25,101 nucleotides of DNA. Origin: a virus. The notes under the pieces were generated by a model that saw only the letters and a program-made list of their open reading frames with translations, did not search any database and was not told where the DNA came from. A program made the translations under genes and the position numbers. Of this stretch, positions 3,841 to 14,562 are shown piece after piece. The stretch lies in the IMG/VR virus record IMGVR_UViG_3300023179_000481, positions 1-25,101 of that record; one strand, written 5' to 3'. Every line of letters begins with the position of its first letter. The stretch's first letter is position 1.

Positions 3841-5268
3841 TTAATTCCATCCCATGTCCTGCCATAAGTCCACCTCTTTTTGCTTGCGTATGGCCTCTTC
3901 GGCCTCCTGAATCATCCGCTCCTCTTCGGCTTTGTACCATTCCTTTGATCCAACAATGACCTTTACCGGCTCGGGCTTGTAAAGGTAGTGGAGCGATTCC
4001 CGGAAAGCATAAAGCACGGCATCGGTAATATCGGAGTGGTATTTGTCGCTAATCTTTTCAAACTTTTTGCCCTCCTCCCATTCCACCTTGAGGCAATCCT
4101 CGGCAAAGCGAGTGGTGTTCTTAGCCATGAACCGCTTGGTTCGTAGGGCATCGTTAAGAAGCTCAATAAACTCGACCTTGCGGGATTTTTCAGCAGCCTG
4201 GACCGGGAGTCCACGCCGGCGTTGAAGCTCCTCGGCAATCTTTTTGCCCAGGCCCCCGGTATCCATGACAGTCTTCAGGGGTTTGTACTTTGTTATGCGC
4301 TTCTCAATTTCCTCGGCCAAAGTAGTAATGTCAGCTTTTTCCATGACAAACTCCTCGATAAGGTAGGACTCCTTGAGCTTGTCATTCCATCCAATGACGG
4401 CGATTGCATCCGCGTCATGGTATCCAATATCGACCCCGATGACAAATTTCCAAGTGCCGTCAACGTCGGGGGTGCGGGCGTAGTGGTTGATAAGCGGGTC
4501 ATATTTGAACACTAGGGAGTCTGAATCGGTCACCCATTGACCAAACACCTCGCGCCGGATGGTTGGGTCATCAATGGTGAGGCCGGTCCGGGCTAAGTCC
4601 TCTTGCAATACCTGTTCATGGGTTTGGCCGGACTTGATTGCAATGTGCGGGTTTTGAAAAAACGTCCAGGCATGGTGCGACCAGTTAGGGGAGTGCGCGG
4701 ACTCGTAAAAATACCCCGCGGGCACCGGACCTGGGGTGCCAATCAGGCAAAGCGTCCCGGCATAATCGAAGAGGGCTTTTGACAGGACCTCATCCACTAG
4801 GTTTTGAAGGTATGCCCGGAATGACTGGCACTCGTCGATATACACCTTTTTAAGGGCAAGCCCCCTGAATTTCTCAATTTCGGTCTTATCCTTGGCTCCT
4901 GACAGGTAAATGATCGAGCCGTTGATAAAGTGCATGGAAAGCTCAGTCTCGTTGGTGTGAGCCATGAGCTTGTATTGCTCGTTAATGTTTAGGAGCTCGG
5001 GCCAGAGGATCCGCTTTGCGTTGGCTCGGGACAGGGTGATGTAAAGGTTTTTGGATTTTGGGAATCGTAGGGCGGTATCAATCAGGTCGGCCGCGCAAGC
5101 AATGGTTTTGCCGGATCGGCGCGAGCAAACCGCAGTCTTAAAGCGGGCCTTGTCTTGAATAAATTTAAGCTGTTCAGGAAAGCAGAACTGGGCCACGTCA
5201 AACCGCTTGGCCTGACGGGCCACAATTGCTTGAAGTAAAATTTCAGGCTTTATGTCAGTCTCGTTCAA
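3841..5268 (-). CDS. terL: Terminase large subunit
   Basis: 475 residues; the motor ATPase and nuclease that packages DNA through the portal. ATPase domain: Walker A CSRRSGKT at 48-55, Walker B VYIDEC at 142-147 with Asp145 and catalytic Glu146, and the coupling motif GTPG at 177-180. RNase H-like nuclease domain: Asp280 in VIGVDIGYHDAD, Asp336 in VMDTGG, and Asp413/Asp416 in SDITDAVLYAF. The arginine pair just before the P-loop lysine is usual for terminases. The C-terminal 35 residues are a charged helix rich in Glu/Lys, plausibly the portal-contacting tail. The start overlaps the preceding small gene by 14 nt. All catalytic residues are present, so it should be active. Confidence 0.96.
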   Translation of the reverse strand: MNETDIKPEILLQAIVARQAKRFDVAQFCFPEQLKFIQDKARFKTAVCSRRSGKTIACAADLIDTALRFPKSKNLYITLSRANAKRILWPELLNINEQYKLMAHTNETELSMHFINGSIIYLSGAKDKTEIEKFRGLALKKVYIDECQSFRAYLQNLVDEVLSKALFDYAGTLCLIGTPGPVPAGYFYESAHSPNWSHHAWTFFQNPHIAIKSGQTHEQVLQEDLARTGLTIDDPTIRREVFGQWVTDSDSLVFKYDPLINHYARTPDVDGTWKFVIGVDIGYHDADAIAVIGWNDKLKESYLIEEFVMEKADITTLAEEIEKRITKYKPLKTVMDTGGLGKKIAEELQRRRGLPVQAAEKSRKVEFIELLNDALRTKRFMAKNTTRFAEDCLKVEWEEGKKFEKISDKYHSDITDAVLYAFRESLHYLYKPEPVKVIVGSKEWYKAEEERMIQEAEEAIRKQKEVDLWQDMGWN

Positions 5269-6537: not shown

Positions 6538-7307
6538 ATTTCAGCGATTATCAGTCTTTACCAGGGATCAACGCCTCTTTACTCAAAGCCTGTGCCAAGT
6601 CGGCCTATGACGGGTTTCAATACCTGCACAATCCGATTGAACCCACCGATGCCATGCGCTTTGGCACCGCCCTCCATGCCTATTTCCTTGAGCGCGAAAC
6701 CTTTGACCAGTGTTTTGCGGTTAGCCCCAAGTTCGACCGCCGGACTAAAGAGGGCAAGTCGGGGTTTGAGGCGTTCACCGCCCAACACCGGGGCAAGGAA
6801 ATCATCGACCAGGAGGACATGGATCTGATTTTGGCGTTGAGCCGGTCGGCGAGTCAATTTGGTGAGCTTGAAACCTTTTTTCGTGATCCTGATACCGAGC
6901 GCGAAGTCACCATCAAGGGTGAGTGCGATGATACCGCAATCAAGGGCCGGCTTGACGCGCTTAACAGGGTGTCGGGCATTATCCTCGACGTTAAGACCAC
7001 CAAAAACGCCGATGAGCGATCTTTTGGCAGGGATTTCATTTCCTTTGGGTACGATATTCAGCTTTACCACTATGCCAAGCTAGTTGGCAGACCCGGCGAG
7101 GATTGGAATAAGGTTTTGGTGTTGGCTTGCGAAACTTCAACCGGTCAATCGGCCCTATACAACGTGACTGAGTTTGTTTGCCGTCATGAGGCGGCTGACA
7201 GGTACCACCAAGCCCTTGAGACGGCTCAATCCGTTCTCAGGATGAAAGAGGCACCGCCTAAGTACGGCACAAAAACAAAAGTCCTGACCCTTCCGGCTTG
7301 GGCATAA
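6534..7307 (+). CDS. PD-(D/E)XK exonuclease, RecE/exonuclease VIII-like
   Basis: 257 residues. Motifs of the RecE-type (DUF3799-like) nuclease fold are visible: His48 in FGTALHAYFLE, Asp141 in GRLDAL, the catalytic D-x-K as Asp152/Lys154 in IILDVKTT, and Gln176/Tyr180 in DIQLYHYAKL. Such enzymes resect duplex DNA 5' to 3', leaving single strands for a partner annealase. The ERF gene follows 9 bases later, so the two form a classic phage exonuclease-annealase pair for recombination-dependent replication or concatemer formation. It starts within the stop of the preceding gene. Length is normal for a stand-alone phage version of the domain. Confidence 0.92.
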   Translation: MNFSDYQSLPGINASLLKACAKSAYDGFQYLHNPIEPTDAMRFGTALHAYFLERETFDQCFAVSPKFDRRTKEGKSGFEAFTAQHRGKEIIDQEDMDLILALSRSASQFGELETFFRDPDTEREVTIKGECDDTAIKGRLDALNRVSGIILDVKTTKNADERSFGRDFISFGYDIQLYHYAKLVGRPGEDWNKVLVLACETSTGQSALYNVTEFVCRHEAADRYHQALETAQSVLRMKEAPPKYGTKTKVLTLPAWA

Positions 7308-7316
7308 GGAGCATAT

Positions 7317-7964
7317 ATGAATAAAAGCGAATCAATCGGTAATTTGGCAAAAGCCCTGGGAGCGGCCCAAATGGAAATGAATGGGGCGTACAAGGACAGC
7401 AAAAACCCGTTCTTTAAGTCGAACTATGCGGATCTAAAACAGGTCATGCAAGTTTTCCAAACCTACTATGCCCCCAAAGGGCTCGCGGTCAGTCAGCTTG
7501 TGGGCCAGGATTGCATCGAAACGATCCTCATGCACGAGTCTGGGCAATGGGTAAGCTCGTCATGTGCGCTTCCGGTAGCCAAGCAAAACGACCCACAAGC
7601 CATGGGCAGCTCGATTAGCTACATGAGGCGGTATAGCCTATCGTCCATCCTCGGGGTGTACCAGACCGACGATGACGGGGAATCAGCCATGGATAGGCCC
7701 CAACCCACCCAATCAGCCATTGCGCCTAAAATCGAAAATAAGACCGCACAACCGGCGGTAGCACCCTTACCCCTAACCGGTGATCCCGGTGCGCTTAAAA
7801 TCGGTTTTGGGAAGTATAAAGGCAAATCCATTGGCGAGGTACCAAAGCAAGAGCTCAAAGACTACGTTTTGTACCTTGAAGATCAAAGCAAACTCAAAGA
7901 AGTGCCTATCGAGGGCCAGATCAAAGAGTTTGTCGTTGCAGCCCGAGCGTTTGCCGGGATGTAA
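7317..7964 (+). CDS. erf: ERF single-strand annealing protein with ExoX-C-like tail
   Basis: 215 residues in two parts. Residues 1-125 match the ERF recombinase family: NPFFKSNYADLK at 30-41 and AMGSSISYMRRYSLSSILGV at 95-114, followed by the acidic DDDGE. After a Pro/Ala/Thr linker (about 125-158) comes a small module, LKIGFGKYKGKSIGEVP at 160-176 then LKDYVLYLED, that resembles the DUF3820/ExoX C-terminal domain known from exonuclease X. Function: anneals complementary single strands made by the upstream exonuclease. A GGAG Shine-Dalgarno lies 7 nt before the ATG. A strong terminator follows, closing this transcription unit. Confidence 0.92.
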   Translation: MNKSESIGNLAKALGAAQMEMNGAYKDSKNPFFKSNYADLKQVMQVFQTYYAPKGLAVSQLVGQDCIETILMHESGQWVSSSCALPVAKQNDPQAMGSSISYMRRYSLSSILGVYQTDDDGESAMDRPQPTQSAIAPKIENKTAQPAVAPLPLTGDPGALKIGFGKYKGKSIGEVPKQELKDYVLYLEDQSKLKEVPIEGQIKEFVVAARAFAGM

Positions 7965-8019
7965 TGCTTTCGGGCGTTCGCCCATTCCAACCGGCCATTT
8001 TGGCCAGGTCATCCGACCG

Positions 8020-8055
8020 ACCCCTGGGGCTTCCGTCTCAGGGGTTTTTTATTTT
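8020..8055 (+). terminator. Rho-independent terminator after erf
   Basis: A 7-bp stem ACCCCTG/CAGGGGT is followed by a run of six T, then ATTTT. It ends the exonuclease-annealase unit. The 17 bases at 8040-8056 are repeated exactly at 8521-8537, in the second rightward terminator on the other side of the helix-turn-helix gene. Confidence 0.88.
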
Positions 8056-8113
8056 CTAAACAAAAAAATCAAACAGGCCCCTTTAATTTATTTTGTTATC
8101 TTATCTTGTTAGG
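8045..8113. other. AT-rich segment beside the iteron-like repeats
   Basis: Only 15 of the 68 bases at 8045-8112 are G or C, against roughly half in neighbouring genes. It contains TTATTTTGTTATC followed by TTATCTTG, short repeated T-rich blocks like those of DNA unwinding elements. It directly abuts the three palindromes at 8114-8176. Nothing coding is seen. Proposed role: the melting region of a replication origin; inference from composition and position. Confidence 0.45.
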
Positions 8114-8176
8114 GTGACACCCATGTCACCTCTAGGAGTGACACCCATGTCACCACCCTAGTGACACCCATGTCAC
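8114..8176. repeat. Three exact copies of a 16-bp palindrome (iteron-like)
   Basis: GTGACACCCATGTCAC occurs three times, at 8114-8129, 8138-8153 and 8161-8176 (start-to-start distances 24 and 23). Each copy is itself an inverted repeat, GTGACA and TGTCAC around CCCA, so a dimeric protein could bind it or the RNA could form three identical hairpins. The third copy contains the stop codon of the leftward winged-helix gene. The array lies in the gap between convergent genes, next to an AT-rich tract. Exact identity of the copies with unlike spacers shows selection on the 16-mer. Confidence 0.95.
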
Positions 8177-8481
8177 CCCCCCTTTTTGTTTAATAATTTT
8201 TGTCTAGGGAAGTAAACGCTCGTGGCGTTCGGCCTAATTTCGCGCCAAATCAATTCCTTTTTTTCAAGGGACTGAACAATGCGAATAATTTGACGGCGAG
8301 ACAATCCCGCTTTGTCGGCTAGGGTTTCAAGTGACGGAAAAGCGTTTGGCAAATGGTGATACAACACCGCCAAAACTTTGAACTCCGATGGGGTGGTATC
8401 AAACTGAAAAATTATGTTAGGAATTTTGGTGAAACCATTGCGGGCCTCACCCTTTGGTGCTAGGGTGTGTTTATTCGACAT
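8173..8481 (-). CDS. Winged helix-turn-helix protein, possible initiator or regulator
   Basis: 102 residues. A winged-helix domain spans about 30-90: LADKAGLSRRQIIRIVQSLE (54-73) is a textbook helix-turn-helix, followed by a wing, KKELIWREIRPNATSVYF. This resembles HTH_36-type domains found in phage replication-initiator N-termini and in plasmid and phage regulators. It is the only leftward gene within the early region and lies between two rightward terminators. Its stop lies in the third copy of the palindromic repeat, so the obvious guess is that it binds those sites. It lacks any visible ATPase or helicase-loader part, so if it starts replication it would do so by recruiting host proteins. 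No Shine-Dalgarno before the ATG. Confidence 0.85.
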   Translation of the reverse strand: MSNKHTLAPKGEARNGFTKIPNIIFQFDTTPSEFKVLAVLYHHLPNAFPSLETLADKAGLSRRQIIRIVQSLEKKELIWREIRPNATSVYFPRQKLLNKKGG

Positions 8482-8486
8482 TGCAA

Positions 8487-8502
8487 CGATGGTAGTACAT
8501 CG
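8487..8502 (-). promoter_or_regulatory. Inverted repeat just upstream of the winged-helix gene
   Basis: CGATG and CATCG flank a 6-nt spacer, ending 5 nt before the ATG of the leftward gene. In mRNA it would form a hairpin beside the start codon; in DNA it could be an operator. It differs in sequence from the GTGACA palindromes. Confidence 0.35.
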
Positions 8503-8536
8503 GCCCCTTGGTTCACGCCAAGGGGTTTTTTATTTT
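8503..8536 (+). terminator. Second rightward terminator, upstream of ssb
   Basis: A perfect 8-bp stem CCCCTTGG/CCAAGGGG with a 6-nt loop is followed by six T and ATTTT. It is oriented rightward although no rightward gene lies between it and the erf terminator, so it would stop only read-through or an antisense transcript across the winged-helix gene. Its tail AGGGGTTTTTTATTTTC is identical to that of the first terminator. Confidence 0.88.
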
Positions 8537-8557
8537 CAAGCGTCAAGCAAATATCGC

Positions 8558-8585
8558 TTGCCGGAAAATTTTGCCGGTGTAGAGT
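8558..8585 (+). promoter_or_regulatory. Candidate promoter of the ssb unit
   Basis: TTGCCG (8558-8563) and TAGAGT (8580-8585) are 16 bp apart, a plausible sigma-70 pair. TTGCCGG is repeated directly at 8571-8577 and a CAAGC/GCTTG inverted repeat (8544-8560) overlaps the -35, which could be regulator sites. A new promoter is required here because a strong terminator lies just upstream. Confidence 0.5.
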
Positions 8586-8603
8586 GGCGAAAAAGGAGCA
8601 CAC

Positions 8604-9029
8604 ATGAGTAACAATACATTTCAATTCATCGGCAACCTTGTGAATGATGCCGAAACCAAAACAACCCAGTCCAACCTTCAAATTTTGAATTTTCGGTTAG
8701 CGGTATCCGACGGGTACGGCGAAAAGAAGTTTACCGATTATCACACAATTAAGGCTTTTGGAAAAACGGCCGAATACAACACCGCGCTTGCCAAGGGCGA
8801 CAGGGTGATGGTGGCGGGCCGGGTAAAGAGTAATTCCTACGAAAAAGACGGCAAAAAGATTTATAGCACTGACCTTGTGGCAGATCGTATCTATCGTATC
8901 GCTAAGGTTGATTCTGAGGTTGATCCTCGCGTAGCCAACATGGGTCGGCAAATGGACGCAGCCAGGCCGGTTGCGCAGTTTGAGTCTTTCAAATCCACCC
9001 TCATTGATGACGACACCATTCCGTTTTAA
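8604..9029 (+). CDS. ssb: Single-stranded DNA-binding protein
   Basis: 141 residues. The OB-fold of bacterial-type SSB fills about 5-105: TFQFIGNLVNDAETK, then ILNFRLAVSDGYGEKKFTDY, then GDRVMVAGRVKSNSYEKDGK. The last residues, IDDDTIPF, are the acidic tip that docks partner proteins such as exonuclease, RecO and primosome parts. The linker is short, so the protein is compact compared with the host version. A GGAG Shine-Dalgarno lies 6 nt before the ATG. It heads the unit containing RusA and fits the exonuclease-ERF recombination set. Confidence 0.95.
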   Translation: MSNNTFQFIGNLVNDAETKTTQSNLQILNFRLAVSDGYGEKKFTDYHTIKAFGKTAEYNTALAKGDRVMVAGRVKSNSYEKDGKKIYSTDLVADRIYRIAKVDSEVDPRVANMGRQMDAARPVAQFESFKSTLIDDDTIPF

Positions 9030-9322: not shown

Positions 9323-9681
9323 AATACCGGTTTTTCTTAAAGCTACCGGGGCTCCCCAAGTTAAACAACACGCATTACACAAATTGGAGAGTCGCGGCAG
9401 CCGAAAGAAAAAAGTGGAGGAGGGCGGCCATGCTATTAGCATCCCCCCAAAGGCCTCCCTCCCCACTTAAATTTTGTTCCATTACCTGCACCCGGTACGC
9501 GTATGGAAAAAAGCCCGATTTTGACAACCTTGTCATCAGCTTCAAAAGTGTGATTGATGGGCTAAAGGACGCGGGCATTATTATTGATGATAGTAGTGAT
9601 TGCATATTAGAAAGACGCTATAATCACGAAAAAGCGCCGGCCAAAAAAGGTTGGATTGAAGTGATTGTGGAGGAGCTATGA
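9319..9681 (+). CDS. rusA: RusA-family Holliday junction resolvase
   Basis: 120 residues, the usual RusA length. The diagnostic block is at 64-91: KKPDFDNLVISFKSVIDGLKD with Asp67, Asp69 and Asn70, then IIIDDSSD with Asp90/Asp91; these acidic residues bind the metals that cut four-way junctions. The N-terminal strand FFLKLPGLPKLNN also fits the family. Its role is to resolve branched DNA produced by exonuclease-ERF recombination before packaging. It is coupled to the genes on either side by overlapping start and stop codons. Confidence 0.92.
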   Translation: MKYRFFLKLPGLPKLNNTHYTNWRVAAAERKKWRRAAMLLASPQRPPSPLKFCSITCTRYAYGKKPDFDNLVISFKSVIDGLKDAGIIIDDSSDCILERRYNHEKAPAKKGWIEVIVEEL

Positions 9682-10403
9682 GAGTTGTTTCTTGGTTTAG
9701 TTGTGGCGCGGCATCGGCGGTTGCCACAAAAAAGGCCCTGGACCAATACGGAAAAGAAAACTTTGTCGTCGCGTCTTGTGTTGTTGAAAATGAACATCCC
9801 GATAACGAAAGATTTTTGCAGGATTGCGAAAAGTGGTTTGGAGTGGAAATCATTAGGTTGCGGTCTCAAAAATATAAAGACTGTTGGGAAGTTTGGGAAA
9901 AAAACAGGTATTTGGCCGGAATCGCCGGCGCAAAATGCACAACAGAAATGAAAAAAATTGTGCGCCAAAAGTTTCAAAAAATATCCGATGTGCAAATCTT
10001 TGGATTTACCGCGGAGGAGCAAAAGCGGGCCAAAAGGTTTATGGAAAACAACCCCGAGGTGGATTTAAGGACGCCATTGATTGACCTGGGGCTTACCAAA
10101 AAAGACTGTTTTATTGAGATTCAGAAAGCGGGCATTGAGCTTCCGGCCATGTATCGCCTTGGATACAACAACAACAATTGTATTGGTTGTGTAAAGGGTG
10201 GCGCCGGATATTGGAATAAAATCAGAAAAGATTTTCCAGAGGTGTTTGAGAGAATGGCCAAGCTAGAGCGCAGCATTGGTGCCAGGCTTACCAAGCACAA
10301 AAACAAACGAGTTTTTTTAGATGAGTTGCCGCCAGACGCGGGCAAAAACCAAAAAGAGCCCGACATGGAGTGCGGTCTTTGGTGCGGAAATCAACCGGGG
10401 TAA
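9678..10403 (+). CDS. PP-loop ATPase, PAPS-reductase-like (first of pair)
   Basis: 241 residues. The N-terminal PP-loop is SCGAAS at 8-13 after the strand VVSWF, as in the adenine nucleotide alpha-hydrolase/PAPS reductase superfamily. Cysteines are striking: Cys87 in AGAKCTTE, a CIGC pair at 168-171 in a NNNNCIGCVKGG block, and a C-terminal ECGLWC at 231-236. The ECGL part recalls the catalytic ECGLH of sulfonucleotide reductases, with Trp replacing His. The enzyme should bind ATP or a sulfonucleotide and act on sulfur or activate a base; the substrate is unknown. A GGAGGAG Shine-Dalgarno and ATGA overlap couple it to rusA. The gene is visibly A-rich compared with genes to its left, suggesting later acquisition. 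Confidence 0.85.
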   Translation: MRVVSWFSCGAASAVATKKALDQYGKENFVVASCVVENEHPDNERFLQDCEKWFGVEIIRLRSQKYKDCWEVWEKNRYLAGIAGAKCTTEMKKIVRQKFQKISDVQIFGFTAEEQKRAKRFMENNPEVDLRTPLIDLGLTKKDCFIEIQKAGIELPAMYRLGYNNNNCIGCVKGGAGYWNKIRKDFPEVFERMAKLERSIGARLTKHKNKRVFLDELPPDAGKNQKEPDMECGLWCGNQPG

Positions 10404-10405
10404 TT

Positions 10406-10507
10406 ATGAGCGAACAAAAACCACCCGTAAAAGAACAACAACCAGAACCAAAGCACGATCCGTCTTGCCTGGGATATATTTGCACCTGTTTTGGAGGCAA
10501 AAAATGA
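10406..10507 (+). CDS. 33-residue Cys-rich small protein between the two PP-loop genes
   Basis: The frame starts 2 bases after the stop of the first PP-loop gene and its stop overlaps the ATG of the second (ATGA). The N-terminal half is Lys/Gln/Pro-rich and the C-terminal half is C-x4-C-x-C (Cys21, Cys26, Cys28), ending FGGKK. It could bind a metal or carry sulfur between the flanking enzymes, or merely couple translation. The GG near the end is dictated by the GGAGG Shine-Dalgarno of the next gene, so it should not be taken as a sulfur-carrier tail. Its own Shine-Dalgarno is weak (GGGG). Confidence 0.5.
   Translation: MSEQKPPVKEQQPEPKHDPSCLGYICTCFGGKK
10493..10497 (+). promoter_or_regulatory. 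Shine-Dalgarno GGAGG fixing the start of the second PP-loop gene
   Basis: A perfect GGAGG lies 6 nt before the ATG at 10504. It shows that the open frame running upstream to 10321 is not coding before 10504. Confidence 0.85.
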
Positions 10508-11277
10508 AAATTATTAGTCTTGGCGCTGGAGTACAATCAACCGCCCTTTTAATTATGTCTGACCGCGGAGACATAGAGCGAGCCGACTACGCAATTTTTG
10601 CTGACACCGGCGCGGAGCCAAAAGCCGTTTATGAGTGGCTTGATTTTATTGAAACGCAAGTTTCAATCCCAATTATCAGGACGGCCAAAGGCAACATTTA
10701 TAACGACATTATGTCTGGAGACAGATTCGCTTCAATACCATTTTTCACCCAAGCGGCCGACGGATCAGAAGGCATGGGCCAACGACAGTGTACTTTTGAG
10801 TACAAAATTCAACCGATTCAAAAAAAAACAAGAGAACTATTAGGTTTAAGGCCCAGGCAACGGGCCGGAGCACAATCTGTGGAAATGCTTATCGGGATTA
10901 GCATAGATGAGGCGCACCGAATGAAACCGGCTCGAGATAAATGGATCAAAAACAGGTGGCCGCTTGTCGAAAAAAGAATGAGCCGCGGCGATTGTATTAA
11001 ATATGTTGAAAAGGCAATTGGAAAAACTCCCCCAAGATCATCATGTTTATTTTGCCCGTTTCACAACGACAAGGAATGGCTCCATGTTAAAAATGGTCCG
11101 GCAGACGAATGGCAAAAAGTAATAGAAGTTGAAAAAAAACTTCAAACCATGCCGAAATTAAGAAACAAGCCGTTTTTGCATCGCGACCTTAAACCAATTG
11201 ATCAAGTAGAGTTTTATGACGGATCAGATCAGCTTGATATGTTTGGGAACGAGTGCGAGGGAATGTGCGGGGTTTGA
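10504..11277 (+). CDS. PP-loop ATPase, PAPS-reductase-like (second of pair)
   Basis: 257 residues. PP-loop SLGAGVQS at 5-12, the substrate-side IFADTGAEP at 31-39, RQCTFEYKIQPI at 94-105, and the conserved block IGISIDEAHRM (130-140) followed by RWPLVE. A CLFCPF pair (Cys181, Cys184) and Cys164 suggest a metal or Fe-S site, and the protein ends NECEGMCGV. This family is widespread in phages and often labelled PAPS reductase; its real reaction is not established. It belongs to a different subfamily from the gene upstream, yet both end in E-C-x3-C-G. The start at 10504 is chosen for its GGAGG and ATGA overlap. It is the last gene before a promoter-like gap. Confidence 0.87.
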   Translation: MKIISLGAGVQSTALLIMSDRGDIERADYAIFADTGAEPKAVYEWLDFIETQVSIPIIRTAKGNIYNDIMSGDRFASIPFFTQAADGSEGMGQRQCTFEYKIQPIQKKTRELLGLRPRQRAGAQSVEMLIGISIDEAHRMKPARDKWIKNRWPLVEKRMSRGDCIKYVEKAIGKTPPRSSCLFCPFHNDKEWLHVKNGPADEWQKVIEVEKKLQTMPKLRNKPFLHRDLKPIDQVEFYDGSDQLDMFGNECEGMCGV

Positions 11278-13614: not shown

Positions 13615-14562
13615 ATGCGTGACGATAAGCAAGAGGCGTTAAACATTCTCCGCGAGCTTGCCATGGAGCTAGGCCGCACCCCGTCCTTGACGGAATTTTT
13701 CCAAAAATCCGGTAGGACTAAACATTGGATTACTAAACATTTTGGCGGCTTTAGCCCCATGCTTTTGTCCATCGGTATTCAGCCAATGTTAAACGCCAAA
13801 AAAATTGATAACACCATTTTCCAGGTCGCAAATTTACCGCAATTTCTTGAGGACGCTCCTAAAATTTTGCCAAAGGATAAAGGACCTGCAAAAAAGATTG
13901 CCGTCATATCAGATATACATTGGCCGTTTCACTCGCAACGGGTGGTTGATGCCTTTCTTGAGTTCATTAAAATCCACCAACCTGAATACGTTTTTATCAA
14001 CGGGGATGCCTGGGATATGTATTCCCACGGCAAATTTCCGCGGTCCCATAACATTTTCACACCCCGCGAGGAGCGCGACCTAGCTCGAAAGCATAACGAG
14101 GAGTTTTGGGTCGAGGTAAAAAAGCGTTGCCCGGATGCCAAGTGCGTTCAAATGTTAGGCAACCATGAGGTTCGACCACTGAAGCGCATCCTTGAGGAGT
14201 ACCCCGCGGCAGAGGATTGGCTGAAAAAAGCCTTGCAAGACGAGTTTACGTTTGAAGGGGTCGAAACCATTTTTGACACCCGCCAGGAATACATTATCGG
14301 CAATATAGCCATTTTTCACGGGTACCGGTCAAAGCTCGGAGATCATCGGGATTATACCCAATACAATTGCATTGTTGGTCACACCCACCGCGGAGGAACA
14401 GTATTTAAAAACATTAGAAATGAAATCCTTTGGGAGCTTAACAGCGGTCTAGCCGGCGACCCATTGCAAAAGGGTCTTACTTATACCCCTCAACGCATCA
14501 ATGAATGGACCCAAGGATTTGCCTATGTGGACGAACATGGACCCCGTTTTATCCCCGCTTGA
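13615..14562 (+). CDS. Metallophosphoesterase with N-terminal homing-endonuclease-type repeat
   Basis: 315 residues. The calcineurin-like phosphoesterase core has all five motifs: DIH (Asp100, His102), GDAWD (Asp131, Asp134), GNHE (Asn183, His184), HG (235-236) and GHTH (His256, His258), giving a two-metal site. Before it, residues 8-55 (LRELAMELGRTPSLTEFF, then ITKHFGGFSPMLLSIG) resemble the repeat associated with HNH homing endonucleases, a small DNA-binding module. The fusion suggests an enzyme acting on DNA or nucleotides, e.g. a nuclease or 3'-end phosphatase, recruited to DNA. It is preceded by TATAGT (13575-13580) as a possible -10 and a weak TTAGG site. Confidence 0.88.
   Translation: MRDDKQEALNILRELAMELGRTPSLTEFFQKSGRTKHWITKHFGGFSPMLLSIGIQPMLNAKKIDNTIFQVANLPQFLEDAPKILPKDKGPAKKIAVISDIHWPFHSQRVVDAFLEFIKIHQPEYVFINGDAWDMYSHGKFPRSHNIFTPREERDLARKHNEEFWVEVKKRCPDAKCVQMLGNHEVRPLKRILEEYPAAEDWLKKALQDEFTFEGVETIFDTRQEYIIGNIAIFHGYRSKLGDHRDYTQYNCIVGHTHRGGTVFKNIRNEILWELNSGLAGDPLQKGLTYTPQRINEWTQGFAYVDEHGPRFIPA

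Follow-up and report, generated by a model that had tools for sequence, protein, structure and literature searches.

A candidate replication origin with three interrupted-palindrome iterons at the end of a small HTH_36 winged-helix gene in a virus record

In phage lambda, iterons of inverted symmetry lie inside or at the initiator gene and adjoin an AT-rich tract, and the O protein is dimeric (PMC7466680). The repeats of SPP1 lie within gene 38 together with an AT-rich unwinding element, and the genes stand in the order 38-39-40 (PMC6316719). RepA_N plasmids such as pSK41 and the RepA of PLE satellites combine a DnaD-related winged-helix N-terminal domain with semi-palindromic repeats, and pSK41 carries four Rep boxes centrally within rep (PMC5703833, PMC7145576). 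The Paracoccus HTH_36 Rep plasmids pAES7, pMARC3, pMOS2 and pAES1 also have initiators with iteron-like repeats (PMC3832669). The locus described here shares several of these traits. It lies in a 25,101-base IMG/VR virus record, the whole of which is called the window below and which is taken as a fragment because structural genes run off both of its ends. From the sequence we judge that positions 8053-8481 are probably, with a probability of roughly 0.8, the replication origin of the phage together with its initiator gene. The features are the following.

7317-7964, plus strand: ERF-type annealing protein gene, converging on the initiator gene (PF04404, E 2.4e-21)
8019-8052, plus strand: intrinsic terminator with T-run behind the erf-type gene, stem 8019-8046
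8053-8112, no strand: AT-rich tract, candidate DNA-unwinding element, adjoining the iterons on the 3' side of the gene
8114-8129, no strand: iteron 1, GTGACA-CCCA-TGTCAC, with 7 bp arms when 8113 and 8130 are counted
8138-8153, no strand: iteron 2, identical 16-mer
8161-8176, no strand: iteron 3, identical 16-mer, spanning the stop codon of the proposed initiator gene
8173-8481, minus strand: HTH_36 winged-helix protein gene, proposed initiator, 102 residues (PF13730, E 1.1e-9)
8248-8394, minus strand: HTH_36 domain segment, residues 30-78 (Pfam match)
8502-8533, plus strand: second intrinsic terminator, just upstream of the initiator gene start and of ssb
8604-9029, plus strand: single-strand DNA-binding protein gene (ssb), divergent from the initiator gene (PF00436, E 5.3e-20)

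The array has the direct repeats of an iteron-type module: three copies of GTGACACCCATGTCAC, with start-to-start distances of 24 and 23, which overlap the 3' end of the gene. The first-pass annotation had read them as three exact 16-bp palindromes. The three identical 16-mers at 8114, 8138 and 8161 are indeed present, but the palindromy is not exact, since 6-bp arms enclose a 4-nt centre and the unit matches its reverse complement at 12 of 16 positions. The stop codon of the leftward winged-helix gene (8175-8173, minus strand) does fall inside the third copy, as had been stated. Elsewhere in the window no site has fewer than two arm mismatches to the repeat, and one of 50 shuffles produced a 12-mer with three occurrences inside 100 bp.

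The count of 15 G/C in the 68 bases at 8045-8112 was reproduced, and no 68-mer of the window is more AT-rich than this one and its neighbour starting at 8044. The AT-rich tract beside the repeats, the further element of an iteron-type module, is therefore there, but a part of it (8045-8052) is the T-run of the terminator of the erf-type gene; without this T-run, 8053-8112 keeps a high AT content (15 G/C in 60) that is less extreme. The same tendency was seen in 43 loci with such arrays, most of which have an AT-rich tract on this side; the 70 nt 3' of the array average 12 GC points below the locus and the AT-richness is on average stronger 3' of the array than 5' of it. Cumulative GC skew has no extremum at 8 kb in this fragment record, where skew tracks gene strand, and is uninformative on the origin. 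Both terminators (8019-8052 and 8502-8533) point rightward, flank the initiator gene and end in a common 17-base tail, AGGGGTTTTTTATTTTC; they would shield the gene from rightward early transcription.

The leftward gene encodes, as the first-pass annotation had it, a winged-helix protein of 102 residues, whose HTH_36 match scores 38.3 bits against a curated cut-off of 25. Among the PHROGs families it matches phrog_270, "replication initiation protein" (E 9.1e-8), and so do 39 of 39 relatives. RepA_N (PF06970) is absent among its Pfam matches up to E 1. The predicted structure contains a winged helix at about residues 22-94 with disordered ends (mean pLDDT 75), and the fold search returned generic winged helices: MarR regulators as the closest fold, the N-terminal domains of DnaD and RepA, Fur and Z-alpha, with 4pql/4pt7 and DnaD 2v79 also listed. 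Since these matches are generic, the fold search leaves the function undecided. The protein ends about 20 residues past its winged helix, and a C-terminal part of the lambda O type, recruiting a helicase loader, was not found, with no continuation in any frame. A frameshift into a hidden C-terminal domain was considered as well, for an A5G7 run precedes the stop; a one-base shift crosses the array and then stops directly, so there is no hidden C-terminal domain there. As an initiator the protein would thus be unusually small and without an ATPase part, a bare winged helix, and most of its relatives have an additional C-terminal part. No helicase, loader, primase or polymerase was found among the ORFs scanned in this fragment, and a helicase or loader gene may lie in the part of the genome that the record lacks. 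Elsewhere in the window two neighbouring genes (9678-10403 and 10321-11277) belong to phrog_424, a phosphoadenosine phosphosulfate reductase-like phage family, and are possibly a pair of related enzymes; another gene (13615-14562) encodes one protein with an HNH-associated repeat (PF18780) followed by a metallophosphoesterase.

Co-occurrence of the repeat and the protein, which had been proposed as a check, was surveyed in both directions. Starting from the repeat, public DNA was searched for two GTGACA-N4-TGTCAC units 4-14 nt apart with genes ignored, and 65 tandem-repeat loci were found, 40 viral and 25 genomic (contigs from one-per-species genomes); by our own estimate, for 24 fixed bases and an assumed ~6e10 bases, chance would provide about 0.002 hits in the viral collection. 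The genomic array contigs are labelled Fusobacteriota, Actinomycetota, Campylobacterota, Omnitrophota, Pseudomonadota, Acidobacteria and others. Adding the window and Bifidobacterium phage PMBT6 brings the loci to 67, and an HMM built from the window protein and run on their 3,004 ORFs matched 58 ORFs in 57 of them. In 56 of the 67 the distance from the winged-helix segment to the start of the array behind it, taken in gene direction, is 27-367 nt, most commonly about 60 nt and in the window 54 nt; two further loci (L017 and L075) are winged-helix-like by eye. Among the linked proteins scanned for domains all 39 carry HTH_36, and 38 of 39 match the O-like phrog_391. The array lies within the gene in most loci, while at L021, L043 and L045 it stands between converging 3' ends as in the window. 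About 7-8 of the 67 array loci, some at contig ends, have no recognised winged-helix gene nearby (L072 at 4068-4171, L078 at 4401-4482, L031, L064, L012, L022, L071 and L074), and these arrays may be other origins or operators. Nine weak loci from a search with the window protein (L002-L010), unrecognised by the winged-helix HMM, were left out.

Starting from the protein, HTH_36 loci were sampled by the domain alone in about 745 genomes from the phyla of three array-bearing genomes, and the stretch up to 320 nt behind the domain was inspected in the 77 loci with a placed domain. An own tandem array of 6-4-6 interrupted palindromes was found at 12 of these 77 loci, compared to 7 of 728 control windows. 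The arms vary by lineage, for example GGGAC/GTCCC and GGACA/TGTCC. The relative L052, whose erf is 80% identical, has TGCAATCCATTGCA units at the same position with 24-bp spacing before the contig ends. Behind the winged helix of the ERF-related phages L147 and L089 stand units that are related to the repeat but not the same (ATATCA-N4-TGATAT in L147). The more distant relatives L053 and L084 have neither the gene nor any such array. Thus the gene and the array come and go together, and the joint change of all copies, where seen, is what an initiator and its iterons would be expected to show. In L053 some 700 bases without a clear gene (7123-7848) separate erf and ssb, where the window has the initiator gene; L084 has an ORF of near-identical short repeats at 7602-8639 (TNLEALTTVGG...).

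The way in which the arrays are read by their genes points to the DNA as the conserved entity. The in-gene copies are read as G-D-x-x-V in 67 cases and as V-T-x-x-S in 37, both open frames are used in 27 of 43 genes, and eight copies lie behind a stop and one overlaps it. Because the in-gene copies occur in both open frames, selection acts on the DNA, and this frame usage rules out a peptide repeat as the explanation of the array. The search itself set six arm bases per side and left the flanking bases free; a purine and a pyrimidine are mostly conserved there (RGTGACA-N4-TGTCACY). The spacing within arrays is mostly 22-25 bp, about two helical turns.

The neighbourhood of the arrays gives a further indication. 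In the cultured phage TP-84 an array lies near a 260 aa gene with the same domain, and the genes downstream of it are annotated as a replicative helicase inhibitor and a replicative DNA helicase. The 58 neighbours of array genes include DnaB helicases, primase/helicases and DnaC-like loaders, and unrelated genes too. In Piscirickettsia plasmids a winged helix of 123 aa ends at the array, and another ORF overlaps its end. A DnaA box beside iterons is common, not universal. The window has no box of the form TTWTNCACA. Such boxes are enriched over controls and occur in 12 of 48 distinct array loci (near-duplicates collapsed and nine loci without a placed gene omitted); we give this little weight, since 9 of the 12 come from one clade. 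In that Omnitrophota-linked clade (L013, L025, L026, L038, L040, L059, L070, L079 and L080) the box adjoins the array, and in several loci a downstream gene has ParB and DNA-methylase domains.

One could argue that the winged-helix protein is a MarR-like transcription regulator acting on the repeats as operators, which would make the locus a genetic switch and no origin, as the nearest fold, the small size and the Pfam MarR match (E 2.4e-6) would allow. However, a MarR regulator has its sites at the promoters it controls, and the array of the window, like those of L021, L043 and L045, is placed between converging 3' ends and away from promoters, which argues against an operator. Additionally, at most loci the array is in-gene and off promoters, the single promoter-like match, near 8170-8197, is no more than chance would give, and the relatives match replication-initiation families. 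We therefore regard a regulator as unlikely. The first-pass annotation had offered a phage origin or a master switch; its switch is the less supported part, with the array between converging 3' ends and not at a promoter. Its origin is well supported by the co-occurrence in both directions, the initiation-family matches, the AT-rich tract and the gene order of TP-84.

The repeats could also work in RNA, as tandem hairpins at the 3' end of an mRNA that stabilise or terminate it, and the minus-strand RNA of the array is indeed predicted to fold strongly (-40.9 kcal/mol, z -6.2). Yet such folding is expected of any tandem palindrome, a hairpin does not need the primary arm sequence that is common across phyla, most arrays lie in coding regions and no minus-strand T-run follows the array, so that an RNA element appears extremely improbable. 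We consider it very improbable, too, that the array serves partition or incompatibility, or some other role of the same protein, with the true origin located in the absent part of the genome. The incomplete record, a DNA-binding protein that stands alone and whose gene carries iterons, and the ParB-domain methyltransferase adjoining the array in one clade would be in line with it, but the window ORFs scanned yielded no recognisable partition ATPase, and the relatives are initiator-like with replication neighbours.

If 8053-8481 is the origin, each GTGACA-N4-TGTCAC iteron would be bound by the 102-residue HTH_36 protein, probably in dimeric form with a monomer on either half-site. The three dimers would sit about two helical turns from one another, roughly on one face of the helix, and together build a nucleoprotein complex that assists the opening of the neighbouring AT-rich tract at 8053-8112, where the host replisome or a phage loader would be recruited. 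Such a mechanism has been described for lambda-type O (PMC7466680), SPP1 gp38 (PMC6316719) and RepA_N (PMC5703833, PMC7145576). For the window, what the analysis shows is the sequence anatomy and the recurrent pairing of the array with the domain, from which we infer binding, dimerisation, melting and recruitment. A wider proposal, which we put forward tentatively and at somewhat less than even odds, is that a bare 102-residue winged-helix initiator engages the host replisome directly from three iterons at its own stop, and that divergent phages and plasmids of several phyla have kept GTGACA-N4-TGTCAC as an origin code. Phage origins are seldom annotated, and an array of 6-4-6 interrupted palindromes behind HTH_36 would be a simple origin signature in phages and plasmids without experimental history. 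The shared GTGACA word and the related arrays with changed arms would be a starting point for working out the code by which the winged helix recognises its site, and the 102-residue form makes the minimal protein need of an initiator testable. We found no account of GTGACA-N4-TGTCAC as an iteron common to several phyla in the open-access papers searched, where the arm sequences returned primers or unrelated text only; subscription journals may have one.

Compared with the known systems, the window resembles lambda O and its ori in iteron symmetry, in location at the initiator gene and in the adjoining AT-rich tract, and the array-linked proteins match O-like PHROG families. The C-terminal part of lambda O contacts the P loader, and the window protein is unlike O in having no such part. 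The lambda iterons also differ, being of the ATCCCTCAAAACGAGGGA type (PMC7466680). The likeness to SPP1 gp38 and oriL concerns the layout: TP-84, with its GTGACA array, resembles SPP1 38-39-40 in having an initiator-like gene, a helicase inhibitor and a helicase, whereas the loader and helicase genes and the two origins of SPP1 were not found in the window fragment. RepA_N and PLE RepA are similar in the winged helix, the repeats at the gene and the fold-search matches, but RepA_N proteins belong to another Pfam family, are larger with a C-terminal domain, and have inverted repeats converging on a poly-A tract. The Paracoccus plasmids share the Pfam domain and differ in repeat length (15-39 bp), and pAES7 has its partial iteron where rep starts, at the start codon, in contrast to the array behind the winged helix in the window. 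PMBT6, found by plain blastn and with its gene annotated only as "HTH domain-containing protein", has the same 16-mer in tandem behind HTH_36 (six copies, three exact), but its protein is 318 aa long with a C-terminal part and the array is inside the gene. The layout is that of the lambda O, SPP1 gp38 and RepA_N origins, and the odd point of the proposed origin would be an initiator of only 102 residues, single-domain and ending inside its own array.
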